DNA of 64,000 nt from Paracoccus saliphilus (GTDB taxonomy: Bacteria; Pseudomonadota; Alphaproteobacteria; Rhodobacterales; Rhodobacteraceae). A program made the translations under genes and the position numbers. The notes below the pieces were generated by a model, which did no database searches, was not told the DNA's origin, and worked only from the letters and a program-made list of their open reading frames with translations. This document shows, in pieces, positions 12,537 through 50,954 of the stretch (within the stretch, counting starts at the first letter, position 1; every line of letters begins with the position of its first letter). Location of the stretch: the NCBI RefSeq assembly GCF_028553805.1, contig NZ_CP067140.1:434001-498000 (forward strand), in the 5' to 3' direction.

Positions 12537-12580
12537 TTGCCGCATTGCCATTGCCGCCGCCACATGCATGATTGCGCGTC

Positions 12581-13804
12581 ATGACCACGGATTTCGACAT
12601 TCTCATCGCGGGCGGCGGGCTGAACGGCCCGACATTGGCGCTGGCCCTTGCCGGGGCCGGGATGCGCGTGGCCGTGGTCGATCCCCGCCCCGCCGATGCA
12701 AGATCGGCAGAGGCCTTCGATGGCCGCGCCTACGCCCTCGCCGTGGCGTCGCAGCGGCTGCTGAAGGCGCTCGGCATGTGGGGAGACCTGGCCGACAAGT
12801 GCCAGCCGATCCACCAGGTCAAGGCCTCCCAGGGACAACCCGGCGAAGGTGCCGCCCGCTTCTTCCTGCATTTCGACAGTGCCGAGATCGAGGAAGGTCC
12901 GGTCGGCTTCATGCTAGAGGACCGCTTCCTGTATCGCGCCTTGCTATCCGCGATGGACGGGCAGGTGACGCATATGCCGGGGGTCTCGGTGATCGGCCAA
13001 CAGGTCGGGGCGGCGCATGTTACGGCAGAACTGTCGGATGGGCGGCTGGTCACGGCGCGCCTGCTGATCGGCGCGGATGGGCGCGGCTCGGGCGTGGCAG
13101 AGCGTGCCGGGATCACGCGGCGCGGATGGGATTACGGCCAGACGGCGCTGGTGGCGGCGATCGACCACGACTTGCCGCATGAGGGCATCGCGCATCAGTA
13201 TTTCATGGCGACCGGACCGCTGGCGATCCTGCCGCTGCCCGGCAATCGCAGCAGCGTGGTCTGGTCGGAGACCGAAGCCAATGCCGCTGCCATCAAGGCC
13301 CTGCCGGATGCAGAGTTCCTGCAGGTGCTGCGGCCCCGCTTTGGCGATTTCCTCGGCAAAATTTCCCTCGCCGGTCAGCGCTTTTCCTATCCGCTCAGCC
13401 TGTCGCTGGCCGAAGCCTATGCCGCACCGCGTGTCGCCCTTGTCGGCGATGCGGCGCATGGCGTGCATCCGGTTGCCGGGCAGGGGCTCAATCTCGGACT
13501 GCGCGATGTCGCGGCGCTGGCCCAGACATTGGTCGAGGCGGCCCGGCGTGGCGAGGATATCGGCGCCGAAGATGTGCTGGAGCGGTACCAGCAATGGCGG
13601 CGTTTCGACGCGACCAGCCTTGCCCTTGAGATGGATGCCGTGAACCACCTGTTCGCCAGCGGCAACCCGCTGCTGAGCGGCTTGCGGGGCGCGGGCATGG
13701 GGGCCGTCACCGCCCTGCCGGGACTTCGCCGGCGCTTCATGCGGCAGGCCGCCGGGCTGTCCGTGGACCCGATGCCGAGATTGCTGGCGGGGCAGTCGTT
13801 ATAG
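12581..13804 (+). CDS. ubiH: UbiH/UbiF/COQ6-family FAD-dependent hydroxylase
   Basis: Flavoprotein monooxygenase of 407 aa, of the type that hydroxylates the ubiquinone ring. Motifs: FDILIAGGGLNGPTLALALAGAG (FAD-binding GxGxxG, residues 5-27), GADGRGSGVAE (DG motif) and RVALVGDAAHGVHPVAGQGLNLGLRDVAAL (GD motif, FAD ribityl contact), all in the usual order. I begin at the ATG at 12581, three codons inside the longest frame, because it gives the standard N-terminus. Which ring position it hydroxylates (UbiH, UbiF or VisC-like) cannot be told from the sequence alone. Confidence 0.87.
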   Translation: MTTDFDILIAGGGLNGPTLALALAGAGMRVAVVDPRPADARSAEAFDGRAYALAVASQRLLKALGMWGDLADKCQPIHQVKASQGQPGEGAARFFLHFDSAEIEEGPVGFMLEDRFLYRALLSAMDGQVTHMPGVSVIGQQVGAAHVTAELSDGRLVTARLLIGADGRGSGVAERAGITRRGWDYGQTALVAAIDHDLPHEGIAHQYFMATGPLAILPLPGNRSSVVWSETEANAAAIKALPDAEFLQVLRPRFGDFLGKISLAGQRFSYPLSLSLAEAYAAPRVALVGDAAHGVHPVAGQGLNLGLRDVAALAQTLVEAARRGEDIGAEDVLERYQQWRRFDATSLALEMDAVNHLFASGNPLLSGLRGAGMGAVTALPGLRRRFMRQAAGLSVDPMPRLLAGQSL

Positions 13805-13838
13805 GATCTGTCAGGGTGCCCTCGGGCCGGATGGGCTT

Positions 13839-13907
13839 GCGTCCCGCGATGGCCGGGGGCGCTTCGCCCCCCGGACCCCCAGAGGATATTTGCATGAAGA
13901 AGAAAGG
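13839..13907 (+). repeat. G/C-rich intergenic repeat, copy C
   Basis: It starts GCGTCCCGCGATGGCCGGGG, identical to copy B for 20 bases. A GGGGGCGCTTCGCCCCCC hairpin follows, and it ends GGATATTTGCATGAAGAAGAAAGG. It sits about 35 nt after the hydroxylase stop codon and may double as its transcription stop. Confidence 0.8.
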
Positions 13908-14022
13908 GCGGGCTGGCATGTGCAATTTGGTTAGTATGTTTTTCGTACTGACTTGGGCGGTTTCGTTTCCAGACGCTGCCTGGCGTGTCATGTGACCCTC
14001 GCAAATCGCCGCAATTTACAGT

Positions 14023-14164
14023 GCAACGCGCGCTACCTGTGTACAGGCTGTGTACGCGCTGTGTACATGTTGTGCACAGCTTGTGCAGCCGAAAACCCAG
14101 CATTTACTGGGAAAACTGAGCGGCTGTTGCGTCACTGTGCCTTTGCAGCGCGCGCTGCTGTTGC
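14023..14164 (+). repeat. 11-bp-array element, copy 1
   Basis: The element is bounded by GCAAC (14023) and GTTGC (to 14164). Its left end GCAACGCGCGC is an imperfect inverted match of the right end GCAGCGCGCGCTGCTGTTGC. Five consecutive 11-bp units occupy 14037-14091: CTGTGTACAGG, CTGTGTACGCG, CTGTGTACATG, TTGTGCACAGC and TTGTGCAGCCG. A CCCAG...CTGGG hairpin follows at 14096-14111. The same layout is found at 50712-50854. No protein-coding reading is convincing. Its role is unknown; a miniature mobile element, a helically phased protein-binding array and a structured RNA are all possible. Confidence 0.75.
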
Positions 14165-14188
14165 GTCTTCTGTCCAGAGGCGTCGCGT

Positions 14189-15547
14189 CTAGCCCCGGAC
14201 CAGCATCGGTAACCATAGCGTCAGCGCCGGGAATAACAGGATCAGCACGACCCGGACGAGTTCGGCGAGGAAGAAGGGCATCACGCCCTTGAATGTGTCG
14301 GACATCGGCACATCCTTGGCCAGCGCCGAGATGACGAAGACATTCATGCCGACCGGCGGCGTGATGAGGCCCAGCTCGACCACGATCAAAGCTATGATTC
14401 CGAACCATATTTTCAGGTCTTCGGTGGACATGCCAAAGGCTGCGCCATCGGCGGCCTGGTAGATGCCGCCATTCAGTTCGGACAGGACCGGCCAGAAGAA
14501 CGGGATGACCAGCAGGATCATCGACAGGCTGTCCATCAGGCAGCCCAGGGCGATCAGGCCGACCAGCAGCAGGATCATCACCGTCATCGGCGCATGGCCC
14601 GAATTGATGATCCATTCTGCCGTGGCCTGTGGCAGTCCGGCGCGGCTCATGAAGATTTTCATCATCTCGGCGCCTAGCAGGATCAGGTAGATCATGCCGG
14701 TCGTGCTTGCCGTTTCCTTAAGGGATTCAATCAGTTCGCCGATGCGGATCTGGCGTGTTACCGCACCGTAGAGCCAGACCATGACAACTCCGATCGCGGC
14801 GGCGGGCGTCGGCGTGTACAGCCCCGCATAGATCCCGCCCAGCACGATCCCGAAGATCAGCAGCACCGGGATCACCCCGATGGTTGCCTCGCGGAACTCG
14901 CCCGGCTCGACACCGCCATGCGCCGGGCCGGCCTTGGGATTGATCGCGACATAGATCGCGATGGTCAGCAAAAACAGGATTACTGCAAGAATGCCGGGCA
15001 GCAGGGCGGCGGCGAACATGTCAACGATGCTGGCCTCGACGATGACGGCATAGACGATCAGCACGACCGAAGGCGGTATGAGGATTCCAAGCACCCCTCC
15101 GGCCGCCAGCGATCCGGTGGCAAGCGCGCCGGAATATTTGTAGCGCGACAGTTCCGGCAGGGCGACGCGCCCCATGGTCACCGCCGTCGCCAGTGAGGAT
15201 CCGCAGACCGCGCCGAACCCGGCGCAGCTTGCAATCGAGGCCATCGCGGTTCCACCCGGCATCCGGCCGAGCCATGCATTGGCAGCGCGGAACAGTGCCC
15301 GCGACAGCCCCGCACGTGAGGCCAATGCGCCCATCAGGACGAACATCGGCACGACCGAAAGATCGTAGATCGAGAACTGCCCATAGGCGAGCGTCTTGAG
15401 CTGGCTCAGCATCAGCGCCGGACCATCCATCATGGTCACGCCGATCCCGCCCACCAGGATCATCGCGTAGGCGATTGGAATGCGGATCGCGATCAGGGCG
15501 ACAAGGACGATCAGCGCGATGACGCCAAGGGTGATCGGATCGGTCAT
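14189..15547 (-). CDS. dctM: TRAP transporter large permease (DctM family)
   Basis: Large subunit of a second TRAP transporter, 452 aa, with about 12 transmembrane segments. Family motifs: VPMFVLMGALASRAGLSRALF, GFGAVCGSSLATAVTMGRVALPEL, GSLAAGGVLGILIPPSVVLIVYA and ELGLITPPVGMNVFVI. It is the third gene of a minus-strand operon dctP-dctQ-dctM, 3 nt after dctQ. The operon lies beside the LysR/P450 locus, so it probably imports the compound that locus degrades (inference from neighbourhood). Confidence 0.92.
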   Translation of the reverse strand: MTDPITLGVIALIVLVALIAIRIPIAYAMILVGGIGVTMMDGPALMLSQLKTLAYGQFSIYDLSVVPMFVLMGALASRAGLSRALFRAANAWLGRMPGGTAMASIASCAGFGAVCGSSLATAVTMGRVALPELSRYKYSGALATGSLAAGGVLGILIPPSVVLIVYAVIVEASIVDMFAAALLPGILAVILFLLTIAIYVAINPKAGPAHGGVEPGEFREATIGVIPVLLIFGIVLGGIYAGLYTPTPAAAIGVVMVWLYGAVTRQIRIGELIESLKETASTTGMIYLILLGAEMMKIFMSRAGLPQATAEWIINSGHAPMTVMILLLVGLIALGCLMDSLSMILLVIPFFWPVLSELNGGIYQAADGAAFGMSTEDLKIWFGIIALIVVELGLITPPVGMNVFVISALAKDVPMSDTFKGVMPFFLAELVRVVLILLFPALTLWLPMLVRG

Positions 15548-50678: not shown

Positions 50679-50711
50679 AGGAAATATGGCCGCCTACCGC
50701 AGATCCGATGC

Positions 50712-50854
50712 GCAACACTCGCAGCTTGTGTACGATCTGTGTACGTCCTGTGCACGCGCGGTGTACGGGTTGTGTGGCCCAAAAACCCAGCATTTGCTGG
50801 GTAAAGCTCACTCGGTGTTGCGAGGGGGTTCCATGCAGCGCGCGCAGCCGTTGC
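50712..50854 (+). repeat. 11-bp-array element, copy 2
   Basis: The layout is the same as copy 1. GCAAC lies at 50712, followed by five 11-bp units at 50726-50780: TTGTGTACGAT, CTGTGTACGTC, CTGTGCACGCG, CGGTGTACGGG and TTGTGTGGCCC. The hairpin ACCCAGCA-TT-TGCTGGGT lies at 50785-50802, and a GCAGCGCGCGCAGCCGTTGC end closes at 50854. It is 143 bp long against 142 in copy 1. The distance from GCAAC to the first unit is 14 nt in both. The hairpin here is longer and perfect, so the structure seems to be kept while the sequence drifts. Confidence 0.75.
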
Positions 50855-50954
50855 ATCGCGAGAGAAGGCGTGCCGGATCAAATCACGTCACGTCACTTTG
50901 CCCGCCGCTGGACCGCAAAGGCGGTACGACCCTATTCTATCCAAAGGAGGAGCC

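Follow-up and report, generated by a model that had tools for sequence, protein, structure and literature searches.

Dispersed repeats of bacteria are usually viewed as degenerate or hairpin remnants, and dispersed intergenic repeats at gene ends are already known. The REP/BIME elements, which occur with RAYT (TnpA-REP), are short, dispersed, intergenic, hairpin-forming and frequent at gene 3' ends. Bacterial MITEs are non-coding, reach tens of copies, and display presence/absence polymorphism and lineage bursts. CRISPR repeats are ~23-47 bp, with unique spacers of similar length. The Pho box of the PhoB/OmpR type is composed of head-to-tail half-sites of 11 bp each, so that every helical turn carries about one. 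The nearest described idea is that of the STAR elements of Staphylococcus, which are interspersed intergenic direct repeats of unknown function found at differing loci in each species, the repeats being 14 bp and at least 40 bp apart (PMC3532100). Rho-dependent rut sites, by the criterion given in PMC6407284, have more C than G and a C every 11-13 nt over 78 nt.

The element described here has two copies in the window, which is the whole 64,000-nucleotide stretch of Paracoccus saliphilus DNA that was analysed (positions 434001-498000 of chromosome C1). It shares the general properties of REP/BIME elements and MITEs but differs from the former in that it spans 148 bp with an 11-bp phased array, and 14 of 18 element-rich genomes (those with at least 20 element matches, at most 25 being scored) have no Y1_Tnp match. 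It differs from the latter in that long terminal inverted repeats or a target duplication are not recognised, the internal geometry is fixed, and the array is found alone elsewhere. With PhoB/OmpR sites it has only the 11-bp period in common; the core of the element is GTGYAC, and its copies lie at gene ends and are depleted in divergent promoters. The STAR repeats are likewise interspersed intergenic direct repeats, whereas the element has an 11-bp period, fixed distances to its palindrome (P) and right motif (R) and a polar placement at stop codons. Like rut sites, it lies behind stop codons and has a C every 11 nt, yet it is no more rut-like than control regions. A CRISPR, which the first-pass annotation had already dismissed, is rejected, as the repeat size is wrong (a period of 11 bp, of which 3-5 bases vary). 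Among other candidates, DnaA boxes, Xer sites and a role of PepA as the binder are tentatively set aside. In the published literature, judged by title and the start of the abstract and with subscription papers and preprints mostly outside the coverage, no description of the element is found, and its phased, polar architecture is, as far as seen, not previously described.

Architecture of the Element

From left to right, the element comprises a left motif (L), an array of GTGYAC units (usually five) with an 11-bp period, P, a spacer of low conservation and R (Table 1). The first-pass annotation had described five 11-bp units, a hairpin and GCAAC/GTTGC ends at 14023-14164; all are present upon rechecking of the positions, with array cores beginning at 14039, 14050, 14061, 14072 and 14083, GCAAC at 14023-14027, and GTTGC both at 14126-14130 and at 14160. 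R (14145-14164) is a direct repeat of the left motif and could form a short stem of its own. The middle motif M is found in many copies of the same genome and is missing from some copies of other species. The spacing of copy 2 (50709-50856), noted earlier to follow that of copy 1 within 1 bp despite many base differences, is confirmed. A two-unit pattern with up to three mismatches matches the window six times compared to 0.11 expected, always inside copies 1 and 2, and none of 100 shuffles of the window reaches six matches. The genus model recovers the same two copies and one weak overlapping match on the opposite strand. Copy 1 lies between what we take, from the translations, to be a UbiH-like FAD monooxygenase (12572-13804, +) and a TRAP-transporter DctM-like gene (14189-15547, -); the minus-strand neighbour of copy 2 is presumably, judging from its sequence, GMC-oxidoreductase-like.

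Table 1. Coordinates of the two element copies and their parts in the window.
Feature	Position	Strand	Remark
Copy 1 of element, ~148-bp unit	14020..14166	+	right end 22 bp from facing stop codon
Left motif L, copy 1, GCAACGCRCGCTGC type, here GCAACGCGCGCTAC	14023..14036	+	direct repeat of R
Five-unit array, copy 1, exact 11-bp period	14039..14088	+	cores GTGTAC/GTGTAC/GTGTAC/GTGCAC/GTGCAG
Palindrome P, copy 1, CCCAGCATTTACTGGG	14096..14111	.	
Middle motif M, copy 1, GTTGC	14126..14130	+	
Right motif R, copy 1, GCAACGCNCGCNGCYGTTGC type, here GCAGCGCGCGCTGCTGTTGC	14145..14164	+	end tending toward stop codons
Copy 2 of element	50709..50856	+	divergent region, GMC-oxidoreductase-like gene (-) / + gene
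Array, copy 2, 11-bp period	50728..50777	+	cores GTGTAC/GTGTAC/GTGCAC/GTGTAC/GTGTGG
Palindrome P, copy 2, CCCAGCATTTGCTGGG	50786..50801	.	
Right motif R, copy 2	50835..50854	+	

The geometry is held near constant as the bases drift, in line with the earlier view that the architecture is constrained. Across 152 copies, for which those of other species are the best-scoring subset, the array cores carry 1.60 bits per position versus 0.67 for the 3-nt spacers between them. Among the 139 of these copies with a clear P and R (13 are excluded), the distance from the first unit to P is 58 bp in 129, the others being at 47 bp (five), 69 bp (two), 59 bp (two) and 37 bp (one). The distance from the end of P to the start of R is 33-36 bp in 112 of the 139, 41-43 bp in 18 copies that all belong to the burst species G077, 44-46 bp in eight (one in G077 and seven elsewhere, approximately one turn more) and 56 bp in one. 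The G077 spacer of ~42 bp, an addition of 7 that falls short of a full turn, counts against a fixed-phase model, and the gain or loss of 11-bp units is equally expected from tandem slippage, which counts against the phased-array reading. In P. saliphilus, mean identity is 36% in the variable spacer columns, 76% in the array and 82% in R. The spacer is partly non-random, since 17 P. saliphilus spacers of 34 nt (the M motif included) are 49% identical compared to 26% expected from composition.

Copies in the P. saliphilus Genome

At least 63 places of the element are found on chromosome C1, a lower bound built from 100 of 121 three-unit pattern matches, with a palindromic array match at 3099493 excluded; 51 of these places are examined with their neighbours, five are matched in other searches, and the last seven, the least certain, are confirmed. 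The three-unit pattern itself matches 121 times (70 forward, 51 reverse) versus none for the reversed pattern. By blastn, at least 40 copies are scored of 78 first-look candidates, and these, copy 1 itself aside, are 71-84% identical to copy 1. One place is on the minus strand at approximately 4331867-4332013. All 33 exact R-motif matches of the genome fall inside element copies (32 in the examined set and one in L379), and solo palindromes of the REP type are rejected on this basis. No element match at E <= 0.01 is found on the second contig, which is 242,883 bases long.

The first-pass annotation had named two places only, or random spacing among copies, as outcomes that would reduce the element to chance similarity or plain repeat decay; the search of the genome and its relatives instead finds many copies of constant spacing, and chance or plain decay is rejected from the copy number, the reversed-pattern controls and that spacing. 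Along the chromosome, the 63 places are distributed consistently with random points (CV 1.21; random 95% range 0.78-1.25) and without obvious strand bias, the skew being coarsely estimated from the loci. A role in chromosome architecture is rejected on these two grounds.

Distribution in Paracoccus and Other Genera

The exact P and R pattern, sought in one genome per species for 84,980 GTDB species, is found in seven stretches, all of Paracoccus. A sequence-only model built from 41 copies has matches in 60 of 125 Paracoccus genomes at E <= 1e-3; the other 65 have no match at this threshold under strict filters, so that a generally essential role of the element is excluded. Exact three-unit matches are present in 40 of the 125 (the reversed-pattern control is 0 in all 125), and the R pattern occurs in 51, with one control match each in eight genomes.

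The GTGYAC 11-bp array also occurs alone in other genera of the family. Of 295 Rhodobacteraceae genomes, 32 have model matches; in genera other than Paracoccus the count is 30 of 293, with the matches mostly across the array part. A clear in-phase array is present at 29 of 34 of these loci (e.g., GTGTACGGGTT repeated 5.3 times), the five without a clear array, some of them near a contig end, being left out. TTAAC motifs flank the element or array at L340-L349 in G065, where they resemble inverted outer ends, and at L246, L248 and L249 in other genera. An origin from plasmids or phages is rejected, as blastn finds no match to the element in PLSDB plasmids and phages and there is none on the second contig.

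Position Relative to Genes

The element is intergenic, and its right end often lies next to a facing stop codon. By the gene calls of a simple hexamer caller trained on the window, none of 51 P. saliphilus copies and one of 152 copies overall overlap a called gene. Copies whose right end faces a stop codon number 39/51 in P. saliphilus, 17/22 in G077, 9/15 in G023, 9/14 in G019, 7/10 in G065, 4/8 in G140 and 17/32 among the remainder. Under a null of random insertion into the intergenic DNA of 560 kb of Paracoccus sequence, a facing stop lies within 25 bp in 5.7% of cases. The right end is this close in 22/50 P. saliphilus copies (p 7e-15), 17/22 of G077 (p 1e-17), where it frequently touches the stop codon, and 14/42 pooled from four other Paracoccus genomes (p 4e-8); copies that lack a neighbour call (1/51 and 5/47, respectively, for P. 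saliphilus and the pooled set) are excluded. Bare arrays of other genera have the same placement (11/27, p 1e-7, with one inside a called gene and one lacking a left gene excluded). The left end is within 25 bp of a stop in 1/50, 6/22, 6/42 and 3/27 of these four sets, in the same order. Divergent regions are depleted in all four (5/50, 2/22, 5/42 and 1/27 versus a null of 0.28).

Several observations weaken the polarity. Stops within 25 bp of the left end, too, are more frequent than under the null, both in G077 (6/22) and in the four genomes pooled (6/42). In an earlier, partly overlapping set of 57 copies from other species, from which duplicates and loci scoring under 45 were removed, the right end faces a stop in 27/57 and the left end in 41/55, and the polarity is therefore weaker in that set. 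A gene start is at the right end of 12 of the 51 P. saliphilus copies, including copy 2, which is an exception to stop-codon placement and sits in a divergent region. A copy between two genes, which we take from their translations to be pepA and holC, is oriented with the genes and has its left end behind the pepA stop, against R-end polarity.

Gain, Loss and Bursts

Over evolutionary time the copies either move or are duplicated, as seen from their spread in bursts and their loss in relatives. In the closest genome compared (G067), which is 89-90% identical at the copy-1 locus, the element is absent from the copy-1 site and a single fused L/R motif is found instead, which fits either a deletion between the direct repeats or a site that predates insertion. 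G067 has no exact arrays and three model matches. The element is likewise missing from its copy-2 site (L030) and, within a longer difference whose left flank aligns only to ~700 bp from the element, from L029; L011, L014 and L022 are aligned on one flank only and are, thus, little informative. In G018, the orthologue of L004 is 22 bp (two units) shorter, that of L092 is a remnant, and L013 is aligned on one flank only. Behind the ubiH-like gene, the element is present in 5 of the 42 genomes compared (44 loci) and absent from 37; the five are G014, G019, G029, G138 and G077, the last with the element in the opposite orientation, and four of them were chosen since a match there was already known.

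Copies are more alike within G065 (identity 0.825) and within G077 (0.783) than between P. saliphilus, G077 and G065 (0.595-0.637), and recent bursts are therefore indicated. A pair of near-identical copies in G140 (L338 and L339), with right flanks near-identical and left flanks partly so over the 45 bp shown, is part of a larger recent duplication. Other copies persist: the same orthologous copy lies between the pepA-like and holC-like genes in at least nine genomes, G001, G014, G016, G023, G081, G094, G107, G108 and G119 (loci L036/L133, L037, L039/L131, L123, L125, L135, L136, L139 and L144). Eight of these nine copies are 148 bp by model extent, with 39% identity in the spacer columns and 89% in R. 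PepA is a DNA-binding aminopeptidase, and its gene's place beside the element may be a coincidence.

Explanations of the Element

The explanation that is tentatively preferred, at close to even chances, is that the phased array binds a putative protein and forms a polar boundary at gene ends, most likely a roadblock, on a cassette that spreads in bursts. A candidate sequence-specific DNA-binding protein would occupy four to six GTGYAC sites on the same helical face, in a complex that would also span P and R at fixed phase. Sites on one face are suggested because GTGYAC is near-invariant at 11 bp, the bases between are degenerate and the distances to P and R are near-constant. Sitting at the gene 3' end, the nucleoprotein complex would form a boundary with polarity, most likely a roadblock contributing to the termination of transcription that enters from the R-side gene; this role is proposed because the stop-codon placement is polar and is common to the bare arrays of other genera. 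Copies would spread in lineage-specific bursts and decay where no longer kept, the latter step being supported by two shortened copies in G018 and none at the copy-1 and copy-2 sites of G067. Of the three options raised by the first-pass annotation (a phased protein-binding array, a miniature mobile element and a structured RNA), the array is the best fit. That annotation stands in part: it did not note that the element sits in polar fashion behind stop codons, nor the L/R direct repeat or the wider distribution. A mobile element holds as history, through bursts and presence/absence at orthologous sites, with no transposase found, and a structured RNA draws little support, as the folding of copy 2 is at the level of shuffles and there is little covariation.

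The main rival, which explains much of the same evidence and is a real possibility toward which we nonetheless do not lean, is a selfish, non-autonomous MITE-like repeat in which L, the array, P and R would be sites of a transposase or recombinase and the stop-codon bias would be a target preference for gene ends. The species-specific subfamilies and bursts of G065 and G077 are consistent with such a repeat, as are occupied and empty orthologous sites, the L/R direct repeats with the fused motif at the G067 copy-1 site, and the presence of the element behind the ubiH-like gene in five of 42 genomes in both orientations. Profile matches to a Y1 transposase (REP/IS200 type), found in 12 of 125 Paracoccus genomes, are somewhat commoner among the element-rich (4/18 vs 8/107, Fisher p 0.07), but the matches of P. 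saliphilus (G000), G015 and G085 are partial or split, and with no Y1_Tnp in the other 14 of 18, a REP/RAYT system is rejected. The split or partial matches in P. saliphilus are at C2:79617-79930 and C1:1581466-1581642. The ends have only ~6 bp inverted in common (CGCAAC/GTTGCG), with no clear target duplication, which may speak against a mobile repeat. Such a repeat is further disfavoured by the lack of blastn matches in PLSDB plasmids and phages and on the second contig; by the same polar position of the bare array in other genera; and by the persistence of the orthologous pepA-holC copies in nine species.

Two readings place the function in RNA. A structured 3' UTR RNA transcribed from the gene facing R (a ribosome-termination structure, a stabiliser or a 3'-derived small RNA) is improbable. 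It agrees with a right end that is 0-25 nt behind stop codons and with a short hairpin in R, the outermost pair of which is C-G in 46 copies, T-G in 39 and T-A in 15 (non-pairs 26/126) and in which pairs 128-141 and 130-139 vary to G-U in 11/149 and 58/150 copies, all read on the plus strand, the facing gene being on the other. Folding of the minus strand is better than that of shuffles for copy 1 (z -4.39) but not for copy 2 (z 0.01), and RNAalifold of 29 copies finds a compensatory change in one of 28 pairs. The P pair 78-87 is neither standard nor G-U in 34/152 copies, with six alternative Watson-Crick pairs, and the R pairs 125-144 to 130-139 have no alternative Watson-Crick pair among the types listed. 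With neither an Rfam nor a tRNA match in the window, an Rfam RNA or tRNA is rejected. A Rho-dependent terminator, in which the array read from the R-end gene would be a rut site with cytosines every 11 nt, is very improbable and is rejected. The ribosome-free position behind stop codons and a C/G ratio of 1.18 in the sense array are compatible with Rho, but 86 element 3' regions are no more rut-like than 109 controls (median best C/G 1.23 vs 1.27, one-sided p 0.95), the score is higher on the opposite strand (1.61), and the conserved core GTRCAC has no YC dinucleotide, YC being frequent at spacer positions only, where its share of copies reaches 0.62 at most. As to an intrinsic terminator, in which a T run follows a GC hairpin, the T run behind P on the strand of the R-end gene is at least four in 59 of 139 copies and at most three in 80.

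The protein-bound boundary may extend beyond Paracoccus. A broader proposal, which we consider doubtful, is that the stop-codon GTGYAC arrays across Rhodobacteraceae would be sites of an undescribed protein that ends or insulates transcription, and that the 148-bp cassette of Paracoccus would be a form amplified to tens of copies, with two added fixed-phase sites. If true, a third, DNA-bound mode of gene punctuation would exist beside hairpin and Rho termination. The element keeps a near-exact geometry as its bases drift, at a defined place and orientation with respect to stop codons; this geometry and polarity in one genus, and as a bare array in others, predict a phased DNA-binding protein and a possible gene-end device that depends on it. 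P. saliphilus versus G067 and G018 provides natural comparisons for the effects of element loss.

Neighbouring Repeats

Another dispersed repeat, terminator-like and made up of a GC-rich hairpin with CCCCCAGAGGATATTTGCATGAAGAAGAA after it, is at 13838-13910 of the window. It lies to the left of a number of element copies, and in some species that lack the element, variants of it follow the ubiH-like gene. An inverted repeat with a T-rich centre, AGTATGTTTTTCGTACT (13933-13949), lies between this hairpin repeat and copy 1 and is conserved with small changes at L004, L092 and the G067 and G018 orthologues.
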